NCBI RefSeq assembly: GCF_026342015.1
Contig: NZ_JAPENL010000001.1
Coordinates: forward strand, 1,488,001-1,552,000
Length of the DNA: 64,000 bases
DNA from: Micromonospora lupini
GTDB lineage: Bacteria > Actinomycetota > Actinomycetes > Mycobacteriales > Micromonosporaceae
Reading direction: 5' to 3'
How positions within the stretch are numbered: position 1 is the first letter of the stretch; every line of letters begins with the position of its first letter. The translations under genes were made by a program, and so were the position numbers. The notes under the pieces were generated by a model. It did not search any database. It had not been told where the DNA came from and worked only from the letters and a program-made list of their open reading frames with translations. Below, piece by piece: positions 15,376-28,858 of the stretch.

Positions 15376-15385
15376 CGAAGCGCTC

Positions 15386-15406
15386 GTCGGCATCGAGCAT
15401 GCCGAC
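15386..15406 (+). terminator. hairpin after small secreted protein gene
   Basis: GTCGGCAT / ATGCCGAC, perfect 8-bp stem with a 5-base loop, 10 bases after the stop codon. Confidence 0.5.
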
Positions 15407-15463
15407 CACGTCACGCCGCGTTCGACGTCACGGCCGACCGGGGGGCGGTAGAGAGGTTCGGAG

Positions 15464-15543
15464 GCTGTGGAGCTGATGTCGTCAACGAATCAGGTGCGCG
15501 CGTGGGGCGCCGGGTGATTCGTTGGCGACATCAGCTCCACAGC
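15464..15543. repeat. 29-bp-arm stem-loop repeat, copy 1
   Basis: Two 29-base arms (15464-15492 and 15515-15543) pair with a single G-U wobble around a 22-base G+C-rich loop. The arm is 24/28 identical to that of copy 2 at 15881-15957, and two of the differences are compensated in the opposite arm. This indicates selection for the stem. It lies between the small secreted protein gene and the truncated ORF at 15654. Confidence 0.85.
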
Positions 15544-15653
15544 GTCGATCCGATGGTGGTGCCCTCCGATGCGGGGGCGATCATCCGTCCGCCGGTCACG
15601 ACCGCCGGGCGACCTCCGAGACGAACCCCTTCCCAACGCCTGCAGGGGGGATC

Positions 15654-15893
15654 ATGCCCATCGACCAGCAACCACAGGTGCGGTCCGGTGACCTTTTGCA
15701 CCTGACCCGCGCCGCGAGCCCGCAGTTCGCCCGGCCCATCATCGTCCGCGTGATTCGCGCCCTCACCGACCGACACACGTACCACGGTTGGTTGTGGATC
15801 GACGCCTACGGCCGGTCCTCGACGTGCGACGTCAACGGCTCGATCACTTCCGCACTGTCCGGCGGGCAGTGGGGTCGGCGCCTTTGGACCTGA
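15654..15893 (+). pseudogene. truncated small conserved actinobacterial protein
   Basis: 79 codons from ATG 15654 (AGGGGGG just upstream). The first 50 residues have the look of a small conserved actinobacterial family (RSGDLLHLTRAASPQFARP, then FRVIR-like and YHGWLWIDAYG segments). After IDAYG the sequence loses that pattern, and the stop codon falls inside the left arm of repeat copy 2 (15881-15909). I read this as a gene whose 3' end was replaced or disrupted near the repeat. It could still be translated. Function unknown. Confidence 0.5.
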
Positions 15894-15957
15894 TGCCGTA
15901 AACGAATCACGCGGGCGGGGCGAGAGGGTGATTCGTCTACGACATCAGGTCCAAAGG
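15881..15957. repeat. 29-bp-arm stem-loop repeat, copy 2
   Basis: Arms 15881-15909 and 15929-15957 pair with two mismatches around a 19-base G-rich loop. It shares the inner sequence AACGAATCA/TGATTCGT and most of the rest of the arm with copy 1. It overlaps the end of the truncated ORF and may also terminate transcription. Confidence 0.85.
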
Positions 15958-16087
15958 GTCTCGACCAATGGCGCCGCCCTTTCGGGGGCGGGCGGTGAAG
16001 CCCGGCGCTACGCCGAACACCGTGAGGACGGCGGCTGCGATCCGGCGGGCTCGTCCTGACCACCGCCAGCGCCCGCTCGCGGCTTCG

Positions 16088-19000
16088 TCATGCCATCGCG
16101 GGAGATGCGGGTGGGCGCGATGCCGCCACCTGGATCAGTACCGGGGTACGGCCCGTGGAGAGGTAGCCGCGCCCTGGTGGGCCGGTGAGGTACTGGTCGG
16201 CTTCCAGGGTGATGCTGTGGGCCACCGCCGTCGTCCGGTTGCTCGGGGCCAGCACGAGTCGCGTCCCGGCCATCATGACGGCGTTGACCAGGCGGGTGAG
16301 CGGACTGGGGAAGCCGGTCAACAGGGGCGTGGCGTCGGCGGTGACGATCAGGGCCCGCCGGCCGCGAGCCGCGGGCTGGGCGATGTCGTCGAGCAGCGTG
16401 GGGCTGCTCGCGAAGCCCTGTTCGGTGGGCAGCACGGTGAGCCGGTCCACGTCGTCGACGACCACCGCGTACGGGTCGTCGCCGAAGGGCGTGACGGCGT
16501 CGCGCAGGTCGGTGTCCCTGATCGCGACGCCGGTGAGCACCCGAAGCCCGGGGTCGTCGGGGAGCAGCCCCGGCAGCGGGGACTGCGGCGGCGCGACGGC
16601 GAGTACGGCGATGCCGCGTCGGCGCAGCGCGTGTGCCACAGTGGCGGCTGCCGTCGTACGGCCGGTCCCGCCGGTCCCGGAGATCAGCATCAGGTGCGGC
16701 CCGGCCTCGAACAGGTCGACGCCGATGGCCGTGGTGTCGGGCCCACCGACTCCCAGCGGTATCCACGTCGACGGGCCCTGGTCCGCCGCAGGGGTGTCGA
16801 ACGCGGCGAGGTCGATCCGGGACGGCAGGGCCGGGAACCGCCGGGGCAGCCGGTGGGCGGGCGTGTCGGGCGACGCGGCGGCGAGGTCCGTGGCCGACCG
16901 GGTCGGTAGGCACATCTGCACGTGCCGTCCGCTGCCGGCGTCGACGGCCCTCCCGGGCAGGACGGGTGGACTGGCCATGCCGCTCTGCAGATGCGCCCGC
17001 CGGGTCTCCTCCTTGGGGAACGGCAGGAGCAGCCGCCTGTTGTAGAGGGTCGGCAGCCGGTGGTTGAGCATGTCCTGGCCGCCGATCGGCACGACGTGCA
17101 CCCCGAGTGGCGTACCCGCGCTGATGACGCCGCGCAGCGTGGCGACCAGGGACGTCTCGACGAAGGCCGGGTCAGCGTGGTCCTCGAAGTGTTCCCAGCC
17201 GTCGATGACGACCACGATGTGCGGTCGTGCCCCGTCCGGCGAAGACGCGGTGCCGGTGCGGCGCTGAATCTCCTCGTCGAGCCATGTGACCAGGCGACGG
17301 ATCCGGTCGGGCTCCGCAGGCGAGAAAACCCCGCCGCAGTGCGGCAACGCCGCGTACTCGGCCAGGCCCGCCGGGTGCCGTTCCACGACGTACAGGTGGG
17401 CCTGGTCGGGCCGGAACCGGCCGGCCAGTCCGGTGATCAAGGTCCGGGCGAAGGTCGTCCGGCCGGACTGCGGGCCACCGGCGACGAGGAGCCGGTCGAC
17501 ACCGGCGAGGTCGAGAAAGTCCGCCGGCTGCGCCTGGCGTGCCGGGTCGTCGGCGAGGCCGAAGGGTACGGCAGTCGTCGGCGCGGCGGTGGTCTCCCGC
17601 GTGGGAAGCTCGTCGACCGGAAGCGTGGCCGGCAGCGGGGGCAGCACCGGTCGGAAGGGGGCCGCCAGCCCGGAGCGGCCGGCGGCGTCCTCGATCGCCG
17701 CGATGGTGAGCTCCTGGTCGGTGGGGCCACCGCCGGCCGTCGGCGCGACGGTGGGTCGTGGGGCGCCGAGGTCCGTCGGGCTCAGGACCCGGACCACGGC
17801 CGGGGCCGCCCCACCGGCGGGCGGCGGGTCGCCGAGATAGCCGGACTGGAACGGTTGCGGGACGCGGCTCTCGGCGGTGGTGCACAGGATCATGCCGCGC
17901 CCGCGCAGCGCGCCGGGGATGCGTGCGGCGTCCGCCACACCGAGCACCTCGGTGCTGTCGGCGGGTTCGTTCTGCCGCAGGCTGATCCGCAGGGACACGT
18001 TGTTCTTCAACTCCGGCGACAGCTTGCCCTGCAACGACTGTGTGGCCAGCACGAGGTGCATGCCGAGCGAGCGGCCCTTCGCAGCGACGTTCACCAACTC
18101 CCTGACGAAGGCCGGAGAGGCGTCCAGCACCCGGCCGAACTCGTCGAAGATCAGCACGAGTCGGGGCAGCGGCGGCAGGGCCGCGCCGCCCAGGCGCTTC
18201 TGCCAGTACCTGTCGATCTCCCCGTCGTAGCGGGCCAGCAGGGACTCGCGTCGGCTCACCTCCGCCCGGATGGAGGCGAGGACCCGGGCCGCCGCCGCCT
18301 CGTCGAACACGTCGGCGGGGGTCTCCCCGGTGGATCGGATGAGGGCGACGACGTGTGGGCAGTGTTCGAAGGGCAGGAAGGCGCTGCCGCCCTTGAAGTC
18401 GACGAGCACCAGGTTGAGCTCGTCGGGCCGGTTGGCCAGCAGCAACGACGTGACAAGGGTTTGCAGCAGGATGCTCTTGCCGGCGCCCGTCGCGCCGCCC
18501 AGCATGGTGTGCGGACCCTGGCCGGCGAGGTCGACCGACACCGGCCCGGTCGCGTCCGCGCCGAGCACGACACGGGTACGCGGACCCCGGCCCCTCTCCC
18601 ACAGCGCCAGCACGTCGGCGGCGGTAGGTGTGCCGAGGTCGAGAAGGTCGAGCAGGCGTACCGCGCGCGGGATGGCGTTCTGGGTCGCCCCGAGGGTCGC
18701 CCGGTCCCGCATCGGCGCCAACGCCCGCGCCAGCCGCTCGGCGGTCGCCGCATCGATCCGGTCGGCGTCGACAGTCACCGCCTGGCCGTCGGGGCTACCG
18801 GTGAGCCGCGCCGAGTCCCCCGACACCTCGATCAGTCCCCGGCACTCGTTCATGCTGTGCCGGTCGGCGCAGATCAGGTGCACCCCGACCGCCGGCCCGT
18901 CCCGCAGCACCTCGTCCATCCCGGGCAGGTCGCGCAGCGCCAGCGCGCCGTCGAGGACGACGACCACCTCCGCGAACCGCTGCGGGTCGCGCTCGGCACG

Positions 19001-20380
19001 CCGGGACGCGACGAGGGTACGCAACTCGCGGACGCGCTCGGCGCGGGTGGCGGCGGTGTTGCCGATCCGGCACGAGTAGGGCGCGGCGTCGCCCGCGTCG
19101 ACGTGCGGCAGCCAGCGTGCCCAGGCCAGGGCGCCCACCTCGGCGGTGCTGAGCAGCACCATCCGCAGTTCGTCGGGGCCGCGCAGGGTGGCCAGTTGCA
19201 GCAGCAGCCAGCGCAGGACGTCGCGGACCGCCTCGTCCGGGCCGATCACACCGAGCACACCGACGGCGCCCAGGTCGACGGTGATCGGGACAGCCGACAG
19301 CTTCGGGGGGCGGAACTCCGGCCAGGGCTCACCGCGTACCGTCACCGACGCCGGCTGGTCGGCGGTGCCGACCCGCAACGTCAGCGCCTGCGGTGACCCG
19401 GCCCGCCGGGTCCACAGACCGGATCGCACACCGCCGGCGATGTCCACGATCTCGGCAGGGCTCGGCGCGAGTGCCAGGCGTACCCCCTGCTCCGCCTCGA
19501 CCTGGGCGGCGATGGCCGATTGGACGGCCTTCTTCGTCGTGGTGAAGGCGGCCTCGCGCTCCGCGTCCTGCTTCTCCTGCGCGGACTGGTTGAGCAGGAA
19601 GCCGACGAACGACAGCGCCGTGCCGACCAGCAGGATCGGCTGGTGAGCGAGCAGGGCGGCCCCACCGAATCCCCCGGCCGCCGCGAGGATCCCCGCCGCC
19701 GCGGGACCGCGCGCCATTGTCGTTCGCACCGGCATGGTCACCCCGGTGGTGGGGATGACCGGAACGCGGGCGAAGGCGCTGTCGAAGTCGATCCGAGCAT
19801 CAGGGGCCCGGACGAGCCGCCGCGCCCCGGCGGGCAGGGGCGTCCACCGCAACTCGTCGCCGCCGATCTGGACGACGCTTGTCGACGACACGGGGATCGT
19901 GTGGGTGACCGCGCCGCCGTCGACGAACGTGCCGTTGCTCGATCCGCCATCCGTGATGGTGGCCGTGCCGTCCGGCGACACCTCCAGCAGGGCGTGCGTG
20001 CGGCGGGAGACGTCGGCGTCGCGCAGCGGCAGGGCCGCGCCTGAGCTGCGAGCTATCGGGTGGGTTCCGGGCCGCAGCGCGACGGCCAGGCCCGCGTCCG
20101 GGCCGGCAACCACATCGAGTACGCCCACCGCGCCGTCCGTGACGAGGCGACCGGCCGGGCCGGGGCCGCCCACGCTGAGCACCGAGCCGGCCAGCAGTGG
20201 GGTGTCGGCCAGGCGCGCGGCCGGGTCCAGCGCGACGGCACCGGCGAAGCAGCGGCGGCCCGTGGCCGGAATGGGCAGCACGGCCAGCAGGGATCGCACA
20301 CTTGTGGCAGGCGTCGCGGTGATCTCGACGTCGTGCGTCGCCCCGGTGTCGACGTCCCGCACTGTCATTCGCAGGATCAT
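16088..20380 (-). CDS. EssC/EccC-type FHA-FtsK ATPase of a type VII-like secretion system
   Basis: 1,430 residues from ATG 20380. The N-terminal 90 residues look like a degenerate first FHA domain. A second FHA domain (about 95-190) has the phosphothreonine-site pattern ADVSRRTHALLEV and DGGSSNGTFVDG. Two hydrophobic segments lie at about 225-270. Three FtsK/SpoIIIE modules follow: D1 with canonical Walker A GATGAGKS (Lys635) and Walker B LVLIFDEF, then D2 (GGPQSGRT) and D3 (GTGGTGRT), both with Arg in place of the Walker Lys. This is the EssC layout. It lies 10 bases downstream of a Ser/Thr kinase gene that could modify FHA ligands. WXG100 genes are divergent next door. No EccB, EccD, EccE or mycosin gene is in the window. 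Confidence 0.93.
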   Translation of the reverse strand: MILRMTVRDVDTGATHDVEITATPATSVRSLLAVLPIPATGRRCFAGAVALDPAARLADTPLLAGSVLSVGGPGPAGRLVTDGAVGVLDVVAGPDAGLAVALRPGTHPIARSSGAALPLRDADVSRRTHALLEVSPDGTATITDGGSSNGTFVDGGAVTHTIPVSSTSVVQIGGDELRWTPLPAGARRLVRAPDARIDFDSAFARVPVIPTTGVTMPVRTTMARGPAAAGILAAAGGFGGAALLAHQPILLVGTALSFVGFLLNQSAQEKQDAEREAAFTTTKKAVQSAIAAQVEAEQGVRLALAPSPAEIVDIAGGVRSGLWTRRAGSPQALTLRVGTADQPASVTVRGEPWPEFRPPKLSAVPITVDLGAVGVLGVIGPDEAVRDVLRWLLLQLATLRGPDELRMVLLSTAEVGALAWARWLPHVDAGDAAPYSCRIGNTAATRAERVRELRTLVASRRAERDPQRFAEVVVVLDGALALRDLPGMDEVLRDGPAVGVHLICADRHSMNECRGLIEVSGDSARLTGSPDGQAVTVDADRIDAATAERLARALAPMRDRATLGATQNAIPRAVRLLDLLDLGTPTAADVLALWERGRGPRTRVVLGADATGPVSVDLAGQGPHTMLGGATGAGKSILLQTLVTSLLLANRPDELNLVLVDFKGGSAFLPFEHCPHVVALIRSTGETPADVFDEAAAARVLASIRAEVSRRESLLARYDGEIDRYWQKRLGGAALPPLPRLVLIFDEFGRVLDASPAFVRELVNVAAKGRSLGMHLVLATQSLQGKLSPELKNNVSLRISLRQNEPADSTEVLGVADAARIPGALRGRGMILCTTAESRVPQPFQSGYLGDPPPAGGAAPAVVRVLSPTDLGAPRPTVAPTAGGGPTDQELTIAAIEDAAGRSGLAAPFRPVLPPLPATLPVDELPTRETTAAPTTAVPFGLADDPARQAQPADFLDLAGVDRLLVAGGPQSGRTTFARTLITGLAGRFRPDQAHLYVVERHPAGLAEYAALPHCGGVFSPAEPDRIRRLVTWLDEEIQRRTGTASSPDGARPHIVVVIDGWEHFEDHADPAFVETSLVATLRGVISAGTPLGVHVVPIGGQDMLNHRLPTLYNRRLLLPFPKEETRRAHLQSGMASPPVLPGRAVDAGSGRHVQMCLPTRSATDLAAASPDTPAHRLPRRFPALPSRIDLAAFDTPAADQGPSTWIPLGVGGPDTTAIGVDLFEAGPHLMLISGTGGTGRTTAAATVAHALRRRGIAVLAVAPPQSPLPGLLPDDPGLRVLTGVAIRDTDLRDAVTPFGDDPYAVVVDDVDRLTVLPTEQGFASSPTLLDDIAQPAARGRRALIVTADATPLLTGFPSPLTRLVNAVMMAGTRLVLAPSNRTTAVAHSITLEADQYLTGPPGRGYLSTGRTPVLIQVAASRPPASPAMA

Positions 20381-20390
20381 GTCCGAACCT

Positions 20391-22940
20391 TCACGAGCCG
20401 TACGTCCACAGCCGAAGCCCCTCGGCGCCGCCGAGGGCCACGGTCTCGCCGCGCGGGGCCATTGCCACCACGTCGGACGGCAGGATGTCGGAGTCCAGGA
20501 AGCCCTCCTTGTACCTGTGCGCTGTCCGGGCAACCGTGGTGTGCCAGATCCGCACCTCTCCCTCTTCGGCCGTGACGAAGAGGTCCCCCGGCCCGAAGGC
20601 TGTCGCGTCGGGAGGGCGCGACCCTCCGTCCAGGATCGCCACGACGTTGCCGGAGCCGGAGGCCCGGATCACCGTCTCCCCGTCGGACCTGATGTCCACC
20701 CACGGCGCGATGGGTCCAGTGATCCGGGCGGCGCTGCGGCCGCTGGCGGCCTCCCAGGCCCGCACCGCCCCCTTCCCATCGAGGCCCACGAGGACGCGTC
20801 CGTCCGGAGTGAAGCGGATCATCTCGATGTCCACCTCCCCCGCCGACAGGGTGACCGGCTTGCTCAGCGCGGCCATCGGCCAGACCTTGACGTCACCGGA
20901 TCCAACGGCCGCGATGCTGTCCCCGGTCGGCGAGAACAGCACGCGCGTGACCGTGTCGTACTCGCCGACGACGAGGGTCGCCCTGACCTGCTGATCGGCG
21001 ACGTCCCAGAGCTTGACGGCGCCGTCACGCCCGCCGCTGGCGAGGGTTTTCCCGTCGGGGCTGAAGGCGAGCACCGTGACTTCCTCGCGGTGCCCCGCGG
21101 CGACGGCCTTCGTCTTCCCCGTCGCCACATCCCAGAACGTGATCGCGAACGTCCCGGCGTCCGCGCTGGCGAGCGTGGCGCCGTCCGGGCTGAACGCCAC
21201 CGCGCTCACCGCGTCGTCGTCGAGCGTCTCCATCGTGGAATTGCGCTGGTGCAGGACCAGGTGGCCGCACAGGATGACGCCGGCCAGCAGCGTGAACCAC
21301 AGCAGCGCCCGTGGTCGCCGTTGGCCGAACGGTCGAAAGGCCCGCGCGGACCAGGGCGGCACCTCCCGGGACCGATCGACGCGGACGTGGTCAGGGACGA
21401 CCGCGTCCAGTCTGGTCGCCATGGTCGCGGGGCCGAGGCCGATGTCTCCGACGATCCACGTCGGCCCGCGGCCGCCCTGCTCCGGGGGAGCCTGAAAGAT
21501 CTTCCCTGGCGTCGGCCCGGGCGTCGGCGCACGTGCCGACAGCTCGATTCCCAGTCTGGAACCGCCTGTCGACGACGCTGCGCCCGGCCAGATGGCGATG
21601 GTGGCCACGTGCTCCCAGGGCAGATCAGGCGGTGATCCGCGGGAGCCGGCAAAGTGGAGGCCGCGCGAACCGAACCCGATGGTGCCGTGCCACGGGTCCA
21701 CGATGGTCTCCGCCAGACTCCACACCAGTAGCCCCAGCATGACGACGACTGCGGGTATCGACATCCACTCGGGAAGGGCGCTGGCCGTCACCAGCTCGAC
21801 GAGCAGGACTACCGCCCAGAACACGAGGACGAGCAGGGCCAGCCGAGCCCACGCGTGGGCACCTCGGGTCTTTTCGGGTACCGCGACCGGGAACGTCGTC
21901 GTCTGCGCCCCGGTCGACTGTGGCGGCGACCCCGCGCTCTGCCGCTGGCGAGGTGGCGTGGACCGGTCCGGGTGCACGGTCGTGGCCTGCCGTTCCCAGG
22001 ATTCGCCCACCGGGGCGGCGTCGGCATCGGCCTCGACGCTGTCCGCCGCGGGAGGGTCGGCCTCCGCGGCTGCGGCGGAGGCCGTGCTGTCCCGGCGTCC
22101 CGTCGCCCCGGCCTCGACCGGAACGGCGAGCAGGTCGCGGGCCTGCTGAACGGTGAGCCGTTGCGCCACATCCCGGATGAGCAGACCACTGATCACCGTG
22201 GCCAGTGGGTCCCCACAGGTCATGGCCGGGATGTCGTCGTAGAGGATGGCGTGCAGGGTGGCCGCGGTGGACGCCCGCTCGAAGGGCAGCTCACCGGTGA
22301 CGGCCTGGGCGAGAGTCACGCCCGCCGACCAGAGATCGGCGGCGGGTGTGGGGTCGCTGCCCTGAAACAACTCCGGCGCGAGGTAACCGGTCGAGCCCAT
22401 CACCCCGTGGCGGGTCAGACGTGCGTCCCCCGCGGCCTGCGCGATGCCGAAGTCGAGCAGCTTCACCGCGTCGCCGGGGAGCACCATGATGTTGCCGGGT
22501 TTGACGTCGCGGTGTACGACGCCGACCGAGTGCGCGGCGTCCAGTGCGTCCAGCATGCGTACGCCGATCGCCGTCACGCGGGCCGGCGACAACGCCCCCT
22601 CCCGATCGAGGAGATCGGCCAGCGTGGGCGCGTCCACCAGCTCCGTCACGATGTAGACGGCCTCGTCGTCGCCGCTTGCCGGCACGAGGTCGTGGATCGC
22701 CACGACCGCCGGATGGTTGATCCGCCCGGCGGTCCGCGCCTCCCGCAGCGCCCGCTCGCCGAACAGCCGCCGCTCGTCGCCGGTCAGGCCACCCGGGGCG
22801 CGGACCTCCTTGACCGCGACGACGCGCCCGATCAGCTCGTCGGTCGCCCGCCAGACGACACCCATGCCGCCCCGGCCGAGCACACTCTCCAACCGGTAGC
22901 GGCCCGCGACGAGCCGCTGCGCCGACTGGGGATCTGGCAC
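20391..22940 (-). CDS. membrane Ser/Thr protein kinase with WD40 repeats
   Basis: 849 residues from GTG 22940 (AAGGAG seven bases upstream). The kinase domain (about 14-280) is complete: LGRGGMGVV glycine loop, Lys44, HRDVKPGN with Asp145, DFG at 163-165, and APE-type LAPELF. A Pro/Ala-rich linker, two adjacent hydrophobic helices and a later single helix (ALLWFTLLAGVILCGHLVL) follow. The C-terminal third holds WD40 units such as AVAFSPDGATLASAD and LAFSPDGKTLASGGRDGAVKLWD, probably a seven-bladed propeller. First gene of an operon with the FHA-containing EssC-type ATPase, suggesting phospho-regulated secretion. Confidence 0.93.
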   Translation of the reverse strand: MPDPQSAQRLVAGRYRLESVLGRGGMGVVWRATDELIGRVVAVKEVRAPGGLTGDERRLFGERALREARTAGRINHPAVVAIHDLVPASGDDEAVYIVTELVDAPTLADLLDREGALSPARVTAIGVRMLDALDAAHSVGVVHRDVKPGNIMVLPGDAVKLLDFGIAQAAGDARLTRHGVMGSTGYLAPELFQGSDPTPAADLWSAGVTLAQAVTGELPFERASTAATLHAILYDDIPAMTCGDPLATVISGLLIRDVAQRLTVQQARDLLAVPVEAGATGRRDSTASAAAAEADPPAADSVEADADAAPVGESWERQATTVHPDRSTPPRQRQSAGSPPQSTGAQTTTFPVAVPEKTRGAHAWARLALLVLVFWAVVLLVELVTASALPEWMSIPAVVVMLGLLVWSLAETIVDPWHGTIGFGSRGLHFAGSRGSPPDLPWEHVATIAIWPGAASSTGGSRLGIELSARAPTPGPTPGKIFQAPPEQGGRGPTWIVGDIGLGPATMATRLDAVVPDHVRVDRSREVPPWSARAFRPFGQRRPRALLWFTLLAGVILCGHLVLHQRNSTMETLDDDAVSAVAFSPDGATLASADAGTFAITFWDVATGKTKAVAAGHREEVTVLAFSPDGKTLASGGRDGAVKLWDVADQQVRATLVVGEYDTVTRVLFSPTGDSIAAVGSGDVKVWPMAALSKPVTLSAGEVDIEMIRFTPDGRVLVGLDGKGAVRAWEAASGRSAARITGPIAPWVDIRSDGETVIRASGSGNVVAILDGGSRPPDATAFGPGDLFVTAEEGEVRIWHTTVARTAHRYKEGFLDSDILPSDVVAMAPRGETVALGGAEGLRLWTYGS

Positions 22941-23111
22941 CCTCGCGCTCCTTGCCGTCGACCACTACAGTCGGCGCGTACGTTACTCCGCCCGATCGTG
23001 GGTCGGTGTCCGTCCACAACAGACCGGATCCGCTGCGTGAGCCGGTCCCAGTGGTCCGCGAGGCCAACTCCGATCGTACGAGAAGGCGGCTTCCGGAGGG
23101 GTCACGGGGCG

Positions 23112-23423
23112 ATGGCAACCGGGTTCGGTTTTGATCGGGACAGGGTCGTCGACGCCGCCCGGCAGTTGACGCACGTACGCTCGGATCTGGAGTCGGCCGG
23201 GCAGCGGACCCCGCGCCTCGCGCCGACCGGCTCGAGTGAGATCGACGCCGCGCTCCAGCAGTTCAGCACGGCGGCGACGCGGCACCAGACCGGCCTGCTG
23301 GCCGCCGTGACGGCGGCCGCGGCCCGGCTCGACGGTGTGGTCGCGGGCCACGCCCAGCTCGACAGCTCGCTCGGCAGTCAGTTGCCGACCAACAAACCCT
23401 CGAAGGGAAAGACTCATGAGTGA
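23112..23423 (+). CDS. WXG100/EspC-like small helical protein
   Basis: 103 residues, predicted almost entirely helical (VVDAARQLTHVRSDLESAGQ, then ALQQFSTAATRHQTGLLAAVTAAAARLD), about the length of ESX substrates but without a WxG turn. Its last eight bases overlap the following WXG100 gene, the usual arrangement of a heterodimer pair. It opens the plus-strand effector operon divergent from the kinase/ATPase genes. Role as a secretion partner is inference. Confidence 0.75.
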   Translation: MATGFGFDRDRVVDAARQLTHVRSDLESAGQRTPRLAPTGSSEIDAALQQFSTAATRHQTGLLAAVTAAAARLDGVVAGHAQLDSSLGSQLPTNKPSKGKTHE

Positions 23424-23712
23424 CGTCAGCGTCGGCTACGAGGGTCTCCAGTCGGCGGCCCGGAGCCTGACCAGCGGGCAGGAGGAGATGACCCAGAAGC
23501 TGAGCGCACTGAAGGCGATGATCGACCAACTGGTCAACAGCGAGTTCCGCACCCAACTGGCCTCGGGCCGTTTCCAGGACTCCTACCAACAGTGGACGAC
23601 AGGCGCCCAGAACATGATCGGTGGCCTGGAGGGCATGTCGTCGTTCCTGGTCGGGGTCGTCCGCGAGCACCAGGAGCTGGACGCCAGGCTGGCCGGGGGC
23701 ATCAACGGCTGA
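23416..23712 (+). CDS. WXG100-family protein
   Basis: 98 residues with the ESAT-6-like helix-turn-helix. The first helix (EGLQSAARSLTSGQEEMTQKL) and second helix (FQDSYQQWTTGAQNMIGGLEGM) flank a turn in which W-T-T-G replaces strict WxG. The pattern F-x(3)-Y-x(2)-W is typical. No YxxxD/E signal is seen at the C-terminus, so its partner may supply it. Translationally coupled to the upstream gene by overlap, and 12 bases ahead of the toxin gene. Confidence 0.85.
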   Translation: MSDVSVGYEGLQSAARSLTSGQEEMTQKLSALKAMIDQLVNSEFRTQLASGRFQDSYQQWTTGAQNMIGGLEGMSSFLVGVVREHQELDARLAGGING

Positions 23713-23724
23713 GCGCCTGCCGAC

Positions 23725-25077
23725 ATGGACGACTGGCAGGTCCTCGACCTCTACGACGGTGACCCGACCCCGGGCGATCCGGCCTCGATCCAGGCGATGG
23801 TGGCCGATCTCCAGCGTCGGGCCGGGGAAGCCAACGGGCACAGCGCCCGGCTGCGATCCGTCGCGGCGAACAGCGGTGCGCTGGCCCTCCGGGGCGACTT
23901 CGCCGCGACCGTGGACCGCGAACTCGCACAACTGCCCGACGACGCCAAAGCCCTGGCCGACGCTTACCTCGCCGGCGCACAGGCGCTGTCCGTCTTCGCC
24001 AACGAGCTGGCGCGTGCCCAGGCACAGTCCCGGGCCGCGCTGCGTCTCGCGGTGGCCGCTGACAGTCAGTACCGGAACCTGCTCGGTCAGTTCTGTGGTC
24101 TGACCGGTCGGCGCACCTACGGGCCGGGTGTCTGGCGAGGGCTCAACGAGTCGTACGCGGCGGGGCAACGCGAGCCGGTCTTCACGATGGTCGTCCGCAT
24201 CGGTCAGGCCGCGCGGTTGTGTGAGACGGAACGCGAGCAGGCTCGGGCCTCCGCGCTGCAGGCGAAGGGCCTCTATCAGGCTGCCGCAGCGCGGTGCGCC
24301 GCCGCGATCCGCGCCGCGGTGGTGCCCCTCGGCCGTCTGCAGTCCGGAGGCTCACCGATCTCGGGGGGCAACCCGGCGACCGGGCGGGTGTCGCAGCAGA
24401 GGCACCCGGCCGGGTCGAGCGGCTCGGGAGCCACCACCGCCGCGCCGAAACAGCGCAGCACGCCACCCACACCGCCCAGCACGCCACCCACACCGCCCGC
24501 GCCGACACAGACCAACCGGCCGCCCGCGCCGACGCGGCCGCCCGACCCGGGCGACATCCGGTACACCGATGCGTCGAAGAAACACATCGTCGAGGGTGAG
24601 GGCAGCCGGCAGGGCGGCCACCTCGCGGGCACCGGCCTGCCCGGCAAGACGGAGTTCCCGAAGGACTGGGACGAGTCGAAGATCCGCGATGCCGTGCTCC
24701 AGGTGACGCAGCAGGGCCCGCCAATGAAGGGGCCGTACCTGACCAAGGACGCGGACGGCAATCGGCGGTGGGCCTACGACTACGAAGGCGTGGTCAACGG
24801 CGTCAAGGTCAAGACGACAGTGCTCGCCGACGGCGAGATACGTACGTCCTACCCGACGGACCCCAGCGATCCGGGTGTCATCAGGAACCCGAACGCGCCG
24901 ACGCCTGCTCCGCGGGGAATCCCGAACAGCACCACGCCTCGTTACAGTAATCCCGCTGTCGGTGGCGACGGCAGTTGGACCTGGGAAGGCCCGAAGGGCA
25001 GAAAGATCATCAGGGTCGTCCAGGACGCTCAGGGGAACGTCACGACGACCGAGCTCGGCGACTACAACAAGAGATGA
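23725..25077 (+). CDS. modular toxin with C-terminal EndoU RNase domain
   Basis: 450 residues. Residues 1-205 are helical and resemble the trafficking part of WXG/LXG-type effectors. Residues 235-275 are a Pro/Thr linker (PPTPPSTPPTPP). Residues about 280-385 match the bacterial EndoU fold: His287 in KKHIVEGEG, His299 in RQGGHLAGTG, FPKDWDESKI, Lys363 in VKVKTTV and the SYPTD strand at 375-379. EndoU toxins cut RNA at pyrimidines, leaving 2',3'-cyclic ends. After the domain comes a 65-residue tail (WTWEGPKGRKIIRVVQ) that looks like a partial copy of the domain's own second half. The start has little SD and probably depends on coupling. The next gene overlaps it and is the likely immunity gene. 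Confidence 0.85.
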   Translation: MDDWQVLDLYDGDPTPGDPASIQAMVADLQRRAGEANGHSARLRSVAANSGALALRGDFAATVDRELAQLPDDAKALADAYLAGAQALSVFANELARAQAQSRAALRLAVAADSQYRNLLGQFCGLTGRRTYGPGVWRGLNESYAAGQREPVFTMVVRIGQAARLCETEREQARASALQAKGLYQAAAARCAAAIRAAVVPLGRLQSGGSPISGGNPATGRVSQQRHPAGSSGSGATTAAPKQRSTPPTPPSTPPTPPAPTQTNRPPAPTRPPDPGDIRYTDASKKHIVEGEGSRQGGHLAGTGLPGKTEFPKDWDESKIRDAVLQVTQQGPPMKGPYLTKDADGNRRWAYDYEGVVNGVKVKTTVLADGEIRTSYPTDPSDPGVIRNPNAPTPAPRGIPNSTTPRYSNPAVGGDGSWTWEGPKGRKIIRVVQDAQGNVTTTELGDYNKR

Positions 25078-25676
25078 ACACCATGGATGTGAAGTCCTAC
25101 GCGGCGGTCGCCGAGGTGTGTCGACGCCTCGCGGGCCGGCTGGCCGACGACACCCTCGGCACCGTGCGGGAGCACTATTCCGCAGGCGAGTCGGCCCTGG
25201 CCGACGACACGCTGCTGCTCAGCCTCGCGTACCACGGGGTCGGCATCACCGTCGAGGAACAGGCACTGATGCGCTCCTTCCTCGGTGACCCCGACGGCCC
25301 CGACCTGGCCGAGGTGCCGATCATCGCCGAGGTGCCGACCCCGCCGTACCGGTTCAGCCCCACCGGGCCGACGGACGCCCCCGACCCGACCGCGGCCGAC
25401 GACCTCCTGTCGACCGATGCCGCGCGTCGGAACGGCCGCAGCCTGCACCGCGTCTGGCGGGCCCCGCTCGACGGCGCACCGGACGAAGCGGCCTGGCTCT
25501 ACGTGCTGCGGGTGGCCGAGGGCACCGACGAGCTCGCGACGTACGCGGGCGTGACGGCGCAGCTGTGGACGACGCTGCGGCAGAGGTGGCCGGTCGAGGT
25601 CGTCGCCGACGGCTCGACGCGGACGCCGTACCAGGAGGCCGCCCTGGCCGGCGCGGCGACGATCTGGCACACCTGA
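25074..25676 (+). CDS. candidate immunity protein to EndoU toxin
   Basis: 200 residues from the ATG overlapping the toxin stop (ATGA at 25074); ATG 25083 is an alternative with AAGAG upstream. Acidic, largely helical, with no signal peptide and no family I recognise. Segments include VCRRLAGRLADDTLG and TYAGVTAQLWTTLRQRWPVEV. Position directly after a polymorphic toxin, translational coupling, cytoplasmic character and acidity all fit an immunity protein. Function is inferred from context only. Confidence 0.65.
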   Translation: MNTMDVKSYAAVAEVCRRLAGRLADDTLGTVREHYSAGESALADDTLLLSLAYHGVGITVEEQALMRSFLGDPDGPDLAEVPIIAEVPTPPYRFSPTGPTDAPDPTAADDLLSTDAARRNGRSLHRVWRAPLDGAPDEAAWLYVLRVAEGTDELATYAGVTAQLWTTLRQRWPVEVVADGSTRTPYQEAALAGAATIWHT

Positions 25677-25901
25677 GGGCAACGCCCGACGGTGTCCAGG
25701 GCGGCGCCGGGGCGGCGTAGGAACCGATCCAGTCCGGCCCGGCTCTGCCGCAGCGTAACCACCACGATGGTGGGTCGACTGCCCCTGGGGTCGGCTAGCG
25801 GACATCCGCCAGGCCCAATCACGACAGCACCCGCCGTCCTCGACGGCCAGGCTGGCCGGGATCGCCGACGACGGACGTCGGTCCGAGGAGGCGCGCGGCC
25901 C

Positions 25902-26513
25902 ATGGGCGTACCCCGGGCAGGGTCGGTAGGGCGTGTGGCGCTCGCCGGCTGCCTCGCCCTGCTGCTGCTCGCCACGACGGCCGGATGCCGCAGGTCGCGT
26001 CCCAAGCCGGCCCCCTCCGGCGGTACGGCGACTCTCGGCCTCACCGTCACGGCGTCGCAGCCGGTGTACCGGGTGGGTGAGCAGGTCACCATCCGGCTCA
26101 AGCTGGTCAACAACAGGGACGCCGAGTGCAGGCTGAGCCGGGTGCCGGCCGGCGCGGTGACGGTCATGGCGCTGACCCGTGACGGGGCGCCTGTCGCCCC
26201 CGCCATCGGTGCTGCCGCCTACTACCGGGACTTCACCGCGTACCTCATCGAGAACCTGGTCGCGGTGCCACCGCGCGGCGCGGTGGAACTGACCGTCGAC
26301 AGTGACCCGCAGAGCCCCGTGGGAGCGGCCGTGACCACCTCCGCCTCCGACGGGCGCGGCGGGGCCACCGTGACGTGGTGGCCAGTGGATCAGCCCGGGG
26401 CGTACCGGCTGGTGGTGGGTTACCTGCGGGCGCCCCTGCCGGGGGTGCCGGCGGACGCCTGCGCCGCGACGGCCGAGCAGGGCACTGTCGAGTTCGAGGT
26501 GAGGGGCGGGTGA
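25902..26513 (+). CDS. secreted lipoprotein-like protein
   Basis: 203 residues. The N-terminus (RVALAGCLALLLLATTAGC) is a signal sequence ending at Cys29, with a weak lipobox because Thr is at -3. The mature part is beta-rich and resembles a bacterial Ig-like/intracellular proteinase inhibitor fold (TVTASQPVYRVGEQVTIRLKL, GAYRLVVGYL). Its stop overlaps the GTG start of the following VWFD protein (GTGA), so the two are made together. It could be a surface partner of that protein. Confidence 0.75.
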   Translation: MGVPRAGSVGRVALAGCLALLLLATTAGCRRSRPKPAPSGGTATLGLTVTASQPVYRVGEQVTIRLKLVNNRDAECRLSRVPAGAVTVMALTRDGAPVAPAIGAAAYYRDFTAYLIENLVAVPPRGAVELTVDSDPQSPVGAAVTTSASDGRGGATVTWWPVDQPGAYRLVVGYLRAPLPGVPADACAATAEQGTVEFEVRGG

Positions 26514-28858
26514 GCGGCGTGCGCGCGATTCGGCTGGGCGTGGTCCTGGCGGGGGTGCTGGTGCTGTTGGCCCCGCAGTCGGCGTCCGCCGTGGTCACCG
26601 TCAATTCCGACGTGCAGACGGAGTACGCGGGCTGCGTCGGGCAGATCCGCGGCTCGGGCAACGGCGCGGTGCTCGACGAGTTGGAACGCTCCGGTAAGGA
26701 GATCAAGGTCCGCAAGCCCATCTTCGGTTCGGAGAGCGACACCACGACGTACATCCCGGGCAGTGACGTGCAGATCAACTGGGTGCCGGGCAACGACGGG
26801 CGGAAGCTGCCGGAGGAGGGCCCGGGGTTCACCGAGGACCAGTGCGCCACCCTCATCCACGAGATGAACCACGCCCTCGACATGGTGAACAACACCGACC
26901 GGGGCCAGTTCTGCACCCAGGGCGGTCAGTTCGCGAGCGGGGCGGACCCCGGCGAGGTGCACGCGGTGCTGGCCGAGAACGCGTACCGCAAGGCCGTCGG
27001 GGTGCCGCTGCGCACGACGTACGGCGGCTTCCCGCTGCCGACGAACGGCAAGGACTGCGACCCGCCCGGCCCGCAGACTCCCCGTGGCGGCTGCTCGATC
27101 TCGGTGGTCGGCAAGGGTTATCGCTGTGCGAACAGCAACGGCGACCCGCACCTGCTCACCTACGACGGTCTCCGCTACGACTTCCAGGCCGCCGGTGAGT
27201 TCGTGCTCAGCCGCTCGACGACCGACGACTTCGAGGTCCAGACCCGGCAGACGATGTTCCCGGCCAGCTCGGTGGTGGCCGTCAACGCCGCCGTCGCGGC
27301 GCGGGTGAAGGGTGACCGGGTAGGCGTGTACGCGACACCCGGCGGCCCGGTGGTCCGGGTGAACGGCGCACCGCCTGTCGTCACGCCTACCGGGACGAAG
27401 CTGCAGCACGGCGGCACGGTCACCACCTGGGGCGACGGCACGGTGACTGTGGACTGGCCGGACGGCACGCGGCTGACCGCGCACCCTCTCGGCGTCTGGG
27501 GGCTGAGCGTGAGCGTCAGCGCCCCGGACGCCCGGGCCGGGACGCTTGAGGGGCTGCTCGGGGACCGCGACGGCGACCCGGGCGACGACCTGGCCGTCCG
27601 CGGCGGCAAGCGGGTGGCCCTGCCGCTCACGTTCGAGGCGCTCCACCCCGGCTTCGCCGACAGTTGGCGCGTCGAGGCACCTCGGTCGCTGTTCGACTAC
27701 GAGCCGGGTCAGGACACCGGCACGTTCACCGATCGGCGCTTCCCCGAACGGCTGCTCACCGTCGGCGAACTGCCCAACCGGGCCACCGCCGAACTCGTCT
27801 GCCGGCGGGCCGGCGTCACCGACCCGCAGACCCTCGCCGACTGCGTGCTCGACGTCGGGCTCACCGGACAGGTCGCGTTCGCCACCGACGCCGCGCGCGC
27901 CCAGCGGGACGCCCCCGCCGCCGGCGACGTCACCCTGGAGGTCACCCGACCCGGCGCCACCGCCGCCCTGAAGGTGCCCGGTCGAGCCGGCCAGAAGATC
28001 TTCGTCGAGGTGCCGACCGCGACCACGCCGGATCGGTGCGGCATCCTGCTGCTGCTCGACCCGCAGGGGCGTCAACTGGCGAGCGGCTGTGTCATCTCCG
28101 GTGTCGGCTTCATCGACACCACCACGCTTACCGAGACCGGCGACCACCAGGTGGTGCTCGACCCGTGGGGCACCGACCTCGGCCGCGCGACGGTACGGGT
28201 CGTCACCGTCACCGACGAGGAGAAGACGCTCACCCTGGACGGGCCGGCGGTGCGGGCGACGCTCGCCCAGCCGGGAGCGGTGAGCCGCCTGGCCTTCGAC
28301 GGGCGTACCGGCCAGAAGGTCTTCCTCCAGGTCACCGGCGCGACCCTGCCGGACCGGTGCGGCCTGCTGCGGCTGCGCGACCCGGCGGGCGCGGAGGTGG
28401 CCACCGGCTGCGTGATCGGCGGCCTGGGCAACGTGGACGGGTTCGTCCTGCCGGCCACCGGCCGCTACGTCCTGGAGGTCGACGGGACCTCCACCGACAC
28501 CGGCTGGGCGGACGTGCGGCTGCGCGACGCCCACGACGAGCAGGCCGACACCGTCGCCGACGGGCGGGCCGTCACGCTTACCGTCGGCCGGCCGGGCGCG
28601 GTGAGCCGGCTGCGGTTCCCCGCCGACGCCGGTCGCCGCGTCACAGTCGAGGTGACAGGCGCCAACCTGCCCGACAGGTGCGGGATCCTGCTGCTGAACG
28701 GTCCGGACGACGCGACGGTGGCAAGTGGCTGTGTGATCGGCGGAAGCGGCAGGTTCGAGGCGGGTCCACTGCCGAAGAAGGGCACCTACACACTCGTTCT
28801 CGACCCGTGGGCGGACGACACCGGGTCCGCCACGGTCACCCTGCGCCAGGCCGGATGA
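26510..28858 (+). CDS. exported HExxH + VWFD + triple-repeat protein
   Basis: 782 residues from GTG 26510 overlapping the previous stop. A signal peptide ends at ASA (about residue 27). The next region holds HEMNH (117-121) in TLIHEMNHALDMVNNTD, a zincin-type motif. From about residue 200 a von Willebrand type D domain is marked by CSISVVGKGYRC and GDPHLLTYDG (211-220). The C-terminus has three repeats of about 107 residues, each with PDRCG-ILL-(D/N) and SGCVIGG-type motifs carrying a Cys pair. Probably an extracellular or wall-associated adhesin or protease. It is the last gene of the plus-strand run that starts with the WXG100 pair. Confidence 0.85.
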   Translation: MSGVRAIRLGVVLAGVLVLLAPQSASAVVTVNSDVQTEYAGCVGQIRGSGNGAVLDELERSGKEIKVRKPIFGSESDTTTYIPGSDVQINWVPGNDGRKLPEEGPGFTEDQCATLIHEMNHALDMVNNTDRGQFCTQGGQFASGADPGEVHAVLAENAYRKAVGVPLRTTYGGFPLPTNGKDCDPPGPQTPRGGCSISVVGKGYRCANSNGDPHLLTYDGLRYDFQAAGEFVLSRSTTDDFEVQTRQTMFPASSVVAVNAAVAARVKGDRVGVYATPGGPVVRVNGAPPVVTPTGTKLQHGGTVTTWGDGTVTVDWPDGTRLTAHPLGVWGLSVSVSAPDARAGTLEGLLGDRDGDPGDDLAVRGGKRVALPLTFEALHPGFADSWRVEAPRSLFDYEPGQDTGTFTDRRFPERLLTVGELPNRATAELVCRRAGVTDPQTLADCVLDVGLTGQVAFATDAARAQRDAPAAGDVTLEVTRPGATAALKVPGRAGQKIFVEVPTATTPDRCGILLLLDPQGRQLASGCVISGVGFIDTTTLTETGDHQVVLDPWGTDLGRATVRVVTVTDEEKTLTLDGPAVRATLAQPGAVSRLAFDGRTGQKVFLQVTGATLPDRCGLLRLRDPAGAEVATGCVIGGLGNVDGFVLPATGRYVLEVDGTSTDTGWADVRLRDAHDEQADTVADGRAVTLTVGRPGAVSRLRFPADAGRRVTVEVTGANLPDRCGILLLNGPDDATVASGCVIGGSGRFEAGPLPKKGTYTLVLDPWADDTGSATVTLRQAG

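Follow-up and report, generated by a model that had tools for sequence, protein, structure and literature searches.

In actinobacteria, type VII secretion is generally taken to mean the ESX machine, and a locus in Micromonospora lupini raises the question of whether a toxin could be exported by a far smaller set of genes. The locus lies in a window of 64,000 nucleotides (contig NZ_JAPENL010000001.1, positions 1,488,001 to 1,552,000), part of contig 1 of a 7.35-Mb genome, and it encodes an FHA-FtsK ATPase, a membrane Ser/Thr kinase, two small proteins (w1 and w2), a toxin with an EndoU domain and a candidate immunity gene. An earlier sequence-only reading had listed these genes and two further ones downstream, and all of them are present (open reading frames, Pfam, NCBIfam). 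The best reading of the sequence is a T7SSd-like variant of the actinobacterial type VII secretion system (T7SS) that lacks TsdI at the locus, and comparison with related genomes makes it rather probable that the locus forms an island that moves horizontally, in which a divergent type VII module travels with its cargo. The features of the island, in window positions, are as follows.

15380..25785, no strand: inserted island (module), approximate extent, from empty sites in module-less relatives
16088..20380, minus strand: FHA-FtsK ATPase (Pfam/NCBIfam, alignment, N-terminal model, tree)
20391..22940, minus strand: membrane Ser/Thr kinase-WD40 (Pkinase and WD40, kinase motifs, three hydrophobic segments)
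23112..23423, plus strand: w1, 103 residues, candidate helical partner (tblastn homologs in L031, L034, L038, L110 and L111)
23416..23712, plus strand: w2, WXG100-family protein, 98 residues (PF06013, 2.7e-11)
23725..25077, plus strand: polymorphic toxin, EndoU (PF14436 at 1.1e-7, invariant residues, conserved targeting domain)
25074..25676, plus strand: candidate immunity gene (overlaps the toxin stop codon; kept with the EndoU toxin in L110)

Three module-less Micromonospora genomes (L161, L166 and L167) have tight empty sites, at which the counterpart of window positions 15377-15381 joins that of 25783-25790, with 118, 42 or 37 bases between the flank ends. This comparison makes the functional unit shorter than the locus first outlined: an inserted island of approximately 10.4 kb that ends before the lipoprotein-like gene.

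The ATPase and its kinase partner

The ATPase has 1430 residues and matched FtsK_SpoIIIE (3e-41) and FHA (4e-8) in Pfam; its layout comprises a putative N-terminal ubiquitin-like domain, an FHA domain, a weakly hydrophobic segment (approximately residues 228-260) and three FtsK-type ATPase domains. The longer TTG frame given in the sequence-only reading would add 51 residues; the closest homolog has 1430 residues, as in the shorter form. Across 24 aligned sequences, the FHA domain always has R, S, R, H, N and G, and the first Walker A Lys and the Walker B DE are likewise invariant. When a broader selection of 17 N-termini was compared, the FHA R, S and H were still invariant, at least 90% had the N and the second R varied. 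The NCBIfam cut-offs for EccCa and EccCb were not reached (TIGR03924, 338 of 509 bits; TIGR03925, 242 of 347 bits), and the EssC model (TIGR03928) matched at E 9.5e-108 with 361 bits vs a cut-off of 778.

Relatives were sought in one genome per species, where at least 508 stretches were confirmed and the best 80 kept. Identity broke sharply among these: 14 loci were 47-65% identical over nearly the whole length, and the 66 other kept loci were at or below 31%. A tree was built from 58 of the 60 extracted ATPases (a duplicate and L035 were left out), with seven of the 66 distant loci included. The family of the window ATPase formed one clade of 17 rows (100/100), which joined five FHA-ATPases at 99/99, including one (L015) from the M. 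lupini genome itself. EccC proteins formed another clade (19 rows, 100/100), and the window family and its five joiners lay outside both this clade and two EssC-like proteins, which argues that the ATPase lineage is separate from EccC. Several forks elsewhere in the tree were open, and several further actinobacterial FHA-ATPases were placed outside the 22-row group. Two other ATPase loci lie on contig 3 of the M. lupini genome. L015 (8258-16320) is a second FHA-ATPase locus, 34% identical to the window ATPase; L019 (7892-12247) encodes an ATPase that the tree places within the EccC clade and whose N-terminus resembles a caspase by eye, and none of the EccB or EccD matches in the M. lupini genome is near it.

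A ubiquitin-like domain is likely fused to the N-terminus of the ATPase, as judged from a structure model and profile searches. A model of the N-terminal 205 residues (pLDDT, the predicted local distance difference test, of 80) had a clear FHA domain in its second half, with matches to OdhI, GarA and FhaA, and in the first 75 residues the predicted order was strand-strand-helix-strand-strand, as in ubiquitin. Fold searches with the N-terminus returned essentially FHA domains among the matches listed, and the ubiquitin-like part was thereby neither supported nor ruled out. A profile search of 18 N-termini (17 of the family and the L015 paralog) matched YukD in two (best 0.0011) and ubiquitin in one, and four of the six PDB profile matches were of ubiquitin type (E 0.6-1.9). 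YukD also matched four of ten N-termini of other actinobacterial FHA-ATPases (L131, L144, L149 and L154; best 0.0013), all below cut-off.

The kinase gene lies upstream of the ATPase gene on the same strand with a gap of 10 bp. Its product matched Pkinase (1.1e-44) and WD40 (5.7e-20) in Pfam, has intact kinase motifs (GRGGMG, VAVKE, HRDVKPGN, DFG and APE), and carries its WD40 part after three hydrophobic segments. Kinase homologs were found in six of the 14 loci (L025, L026, L027, L032, L037 and L038), and the three of these that were scanned (L027, L037 and L038) have a kinase domain. Four Nonomuraea loci (L029, L030, L031 and L034) have related proteins of approximately 400-440 residues in the kinase's place; the one checked has one hydrophobic segment and no Pfam match, and its first half resembles a degenerate kinase by eye. 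By analogy, this protein recalls the EssB pseudokinase of T7SSb.

Cargo, candidate immunity gene and possible loading

The start of the w1 gene at 23112 and that of the kinase gene on the opposite strand are 171 bases apart, exactly the spacing reported in the sequence-only reading. That reading had also called w1 and w2 a WXG100 pair, which holds for one member: w2 alone matched WXG100, and w1 had no match in Pfam or NCBIfam and was weakly similar to the w2 proteins of L032 and L038 (31%, E 5e-4). A literal W-x-G is absent from w1, w2 and the five w2 homologs compared.

The toxin consists of a targeting domain (approximately residues 1-200), a Pro-rich linker and an EndoU domain (approximately 275-405). 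The EndoU match is above cut-off and covers profile positions 63-128 of 129, and H287, H299, K308 and T374 are invariant in 50 aligned EndoU sequences, in keeping with the His-His-Lys triad described for EndoU in PMC9086364. On this alignment the domain retains residues of catalytic type. The entire toxin, searched against PDB sequences, had two matches only, both in the Pro-rich part, so the EndoU call is based on Pfam and on the pattern of residues. Targeting domains homologous to that of the window toxin reach the T7SS_signal cut-off in L029 (4.8e-6) and L015 (9.6e-7). The effector of L015 has 616 residues and is followed by a small overlapping gene.

The candidate immunity gene begins within the toxin stop codon (25074) and had no family match in Pfam, NCBIfam or PADLOC. 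Two relatives bear on its pairing with the toxin. In L110 both genes are retained (toxin 85% and immunity gene 89% identical). L111 retains the targeting domain (78% identical) and w2 (96%) but has another toxin end with another gene after it, and no immunity homolog was found there. This joint swap of toxin end and next gene is the main evidence for a putative toxin and immunity pair, and the combination of a conserved delivery domain, a swapped end and a linked downstream gene points to a polymorphic toxin.

Similar exchanges were seen among relatives. An effector search scored 7998 candidates that shared most words and fell within set length limits, and 19 proteins were found with the targeting domain in common. 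By a simple local-score threshold, their last 110 residues fell into eight dissimilar groups, of which the EndoU group has three members. Rhs-type cargo occurs in Geodermatophilus, Nonomuraea, Kineosporia and Pseudokineococcus; seven effectors were scanned, five of them Rhs, and Ntox24 was matched in one and TNT, weakly, in another. The short cargo of L025, L026, L111, L113, P0124 and P0135 had no Pfam toxin-family match, so these are toxins by architecture only. In L036 (18535-23078) the Rhs-type effector occupies two separate open frames, perhaps because the gene is broken or because of a sequencing error. Since the C-terminal groups are dissimilar, the module is not specific to RNases, and the suggestion in the sequence-only reading that it is specialised for RNase delivery was abandoned in view of the cargo swapping between relatives.

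The toxin operon could be unrelated to the ATPase and kinase genes and stand back to back with them by chance. Their opposite strands would fit this, as would a Frankia carrier (L028) in which no cargo flanks the ATPase. Against it, w2 and the targeting domain are found near the ATPase in 11 of the 14 loci, across several families and in differing gene orders; eight of the 11 closest ATPases come from contigs of exactly the same length as that of one of the 19 effectors, and so probably from the same contig; and in the window both parts sit in a single island with shared boundaries. We consider chance the least probable explanation of all. Of the remaining loci, L033 has a Rhs-type piece at a contig end, and the L035 locus reaches no further than 938 bases ahead of the ATPase.

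A signalling or defence locus, in which the kinase-WD40 and the FHA-ATPase form a sensor and the toxin acts in the same cell, is also highly improbable. It draws on PADLOC matches of the kinase to the PD-T4-6 and mad6 defence kinases and of the ATPase to mad8 and SspH, and on secretion of the cargo being a prediction only. The best of these matches, however, cover generic kinase and FtsK regions, and none of the four remaining proteins has a match. The toxin, moreover, carries a targeting domain whose homologs reach the T7SS_signal cut-off, and swapping of toxin and immunity genes is typical of exported polymorphic toxins. The PADLOC assignment was rejected for its generic kinase and FtsK-domain matches.

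Related loci encode a further protein of approximately 200 residues (protein U), a gene that is not in the window island. It has a Mog1/PsbP/LpqN fold, with matches to the type VI secretion system (T6SS) chaperones EagT6 and SciW and to a T6SS immunity protein, and was located in L027 (19877-20494), L029 (19444-20040) and L015 (12728-13399), as well as in L030, L031, L032, L034, L036, L037 and L038. A Mog1-fold protein was present in all ten loci with a hydrophobic-segment effector and in none of the six scored loci without one. Protein U shares with EagT6 and SciW the Mog1/PsbP-like fold by which Eag-type chaperones are recognised, and the co-occurrence suggests that it may act as a chaperone for the hydrophobic segments of effectors. 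If so, type VI and type VII export may share one fold for the same loading problem.

The module, the ESX core and described type VII systems

The following mechanism is proposed. The kinase would phosphorylate a threonine, either in itself or in a partner protein, and the FHA domain of the ATPase would bind the phosphothreonine; this contact would replace the contact between the EssB pseudokinase and FHA in T7SSb and switch on assembly. The fused ubiquitin-like domain would stand in for EsaB/YukD. Proteins w2 and w1 would dock on the toxin at its helical targeting domain and hand it to the ATPase for export; the exported end would here be an EndoU ribonuclease directed against related bacteria, with the product of the overlapping gene neutralising the toxin. 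At least in some hosts, the module would operate without EccB and EccD. The phosphothreonine switch, the ubiquitin-like role, the membrane route and contact dependence are steps that we infer. If the proposal is true, one ATPase, a kinase and a cargo island would make a minimal system for probing the roles of the FHA, kinase and ubiquitin-like parts.

Independence from an ESX core is suggested by the distribution of EccB and EccD. Neither was found in five of the 14 carrier genomes (Geodermatophilus TF02-6, Frankia CIT1, Kineosporia R_H_3, Pseudofrankia BMG5.36 and an uncultured Pseudokineococcus), so the ESX core is not obligatory for the module. In three of these five (Geodermatophilus, Kineosporia and Pseudokineococcus), the ATPase is accompanied by the kinase, w2 and cargo. 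Relatives would hold a machine of this kind with other cargo, some of them without the standard machine expected as its prerequisite. The idea of a minimal or divergent secretion module, put forward in the sequence-only reading, agrees with this, as the module is compact and no usual core is needed in every host. The same reading had noted EccB, EccD, EccE and mycosin genes as lacking from the window. This is borne out for EccB and EccD, whose matches in the M. lupini genome (EccB at two places, EccD at three) all lie outside it; EccE and mycosin were not searched for in the window, where nine proteins outside the locus were scanned with NCBIfam. It had further named a complete ESX core elsewhere that always accompanies the locus as evidence against such a module: a core is present elsewhere in this genome, near-complete by profile matches, and its co-occurrence with the module is not constant among the carriers. 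The published account of the M. lupini genome reports, in its passage on type VII genes, 15 of them, with one eccC (40438) outside the three clusters described (PMC4182475).

The module could alternatively be an adaptor, in which the FHA-ATPase takes the place of EccC in an ordinary ESX (T7SSa) core, or works alongside it there, and feeds the toxin to an EccB/EccD/EccE pore. The core genes of M. lupini are consistent with this, since EccB, EccC, EccD and an EccE-like protein occur together in L018, and so are the nine of 14 carriers with both EccB and EccD. The five carriers with neither, the position of the ATPase outside EccC in the tree and its failure to reach the cut-offs for EccCa and EccCb all speak against it, and an FHA domain with an adjacent membrane kinase is characteristic of T7SSb, T7SSd and T7SSe as these are described in PMC11217815. 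We regard the adaptor as unlikely. The module as such does not appear tied to an ESX core, and where both occur the core may still help.

Several observations weigh against a self-sufficient secretion module. ATPase-dependent export of the WXG100 protein and the toxin is a prediction from the genes. No channel protein was found beyond the ATPase and the kinase to account for the crossing of the membrane by the substrate. The second and third ATPase domains have Arg in place of the Walker A Lys in the 24-sequence alignment, the outer domain of the kinase is variable (those of L027, L037 and L038 have no WD40 match), the window toxin has no T7SS_signal match in Pfam, and L028, from Frankia, has neither w2 nor cargo in the ATPase flanks fetched. 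For the ubiquitin-like domain, the window N-terminus matched neither YukD nor ubiquitin in the scan of 18 N-termini, and hhalign against EccD ubiquitin-like domains was collinear with a P of 0.0045 yet a probability of 7.8%; sequence-level support was weak, though repeated across searches. As to the ESX core, L018 holds EccB, EccC and EccD above cut-offs and EccE below cut-off, with a mycosin in a separate locus (L017); EccB in one of the nine carriers with both EccB and EccD (L038) is a piece at a contig end; and the absence of EccB and EccD in the five carriers rests on genomes of unstated completeness. In Micromonospora, the module may depend on the ESX core.

Among described systems, T7SSd is the closest match to the proposed module. 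It is reported from Olsenella and Bifidobacterium (Garrett, Higginson and Palmer 2024, PMC11217815), and the words Streptomyces, Frankia and Micromonospora are absent from the main text of that article. Both occur in Actinomycetota and combine an FHA-ATPase with a conserved phosphothreonine motif (as in TsdC), a membrane Ser/Thr kinase with an outer domain (as in TsdD), a WXG100 protein (as in TsdA, the W-x-G here not being literal) and Rhs or LXG-like cargo with an immunity gene. The island differs in lacking a large envelope protein like TsdI, described in PMC11217815 as a large signal-peptide protein with Ig-like domains: no second open reading frame of more than 1000 residues occurs in 15.4-25.8 kb, a statement for the island only. 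TsdH, a short single-helix protein, was not recognised in the island, where a very short gene could be missed. The outer part of the kinase is WD40 here, whereas that of TsdD is described as helical, and the account of T7SSd in the same article reports no ubiquitin-like protein, whereas one is apparently fused to the ATPase here; such a fusion, if true, could explain why T7SSd has no separate ubiquitin-like protein. Because TsdI is missing at the locus and TsdC was compared with the window ATPase by description only, the module is not called a member of T7SSd.

The remaining systems share fewer features. T7SSb likewise has an FHA-ATPase, a membrane kinase or pseudokinase and a ubiquitin-like element (putative here), but the EssC cut-off was not reached, the FHA domain here keeps phosphothreonine-binding residues that EssC is reported in PMC11217815 to lack, and EsaA and EssA were not recognised among the island open reading frames, no profile search having been aimed at them. 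T7SSa, or ESX (EccB, EccC, EccD, EccE and mycosin), shares an FtsK-type multi-ATPase and a WXG100-family protein, whereas the island has no EccB or EccD, a separate ATPase lineage and an FHA domain. The toxin resembles bacterial EndoU toxins (PF14436; CdiA-CT of STECO31) in its family match and its invariant His, His, Lys and Thr and differs in being joined to a type VII-like targeting domain, with an immunity gene that has no Pfam match. No description of the module was found among the records listed in searches of the open PMC literature, and one may be in print elsewhere. Tentatively, the module could represent a further type VII subtype beyond the described T7SSd hosts: movable, with EsaB/YukD fused to an FHA-ATPase, relying on a phosphothreonine dialogue with a kinase rather than on EccB/EccD/EccE, and with Eag-like, Mog1-fold loading of hydrophobic cargo.

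Flanks and edges of the island

Two genes to the right of the island were assigned to the system in the sequence-only reading.

25902..26513: lipoprotein-like gene (flank)
26510..28858: exported M91-like/VWD protein (flank; Pfam)

Both were ruled out as parts of the system, as they are adjacent in module-less genomes and only three of 16 lipoprotein carriers have w2; by gene distribution they are an older flank, outside the module. The lipoprotein gene was matched in 40 of 121 Micromonospora genomes, in 16 of them nearly at full length with at least 64% identity, and w2 was found in five of the 121, M. lupini included. Besides the tight empty sites, three genomes have the same flank order with wider gaps (L163, 1.2 kb; L165, 0.6 kb; L169, 1.0 kb). 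In seven of the 13 genomes that have a near-full-length lipoprotein gene without w2, the short locus did not show a left flank. L170, which is among these seven, matches window positions 15677-15809 over 133 bases, and the island may therefore have a composite left edge. No left-right repeat pair flanking the island was present among the repeats listed for it.

Two related hairpins with arms of 30-32 nucleotides lie at the left edge (15461-15546 and 15881-15957), perhaps as terminators or boundary repeats. ARAGORN called a tRNA-Arg(gcg) at 17712-17801, inside the ATPase gene and on the opposite strand, which is probably a false call.

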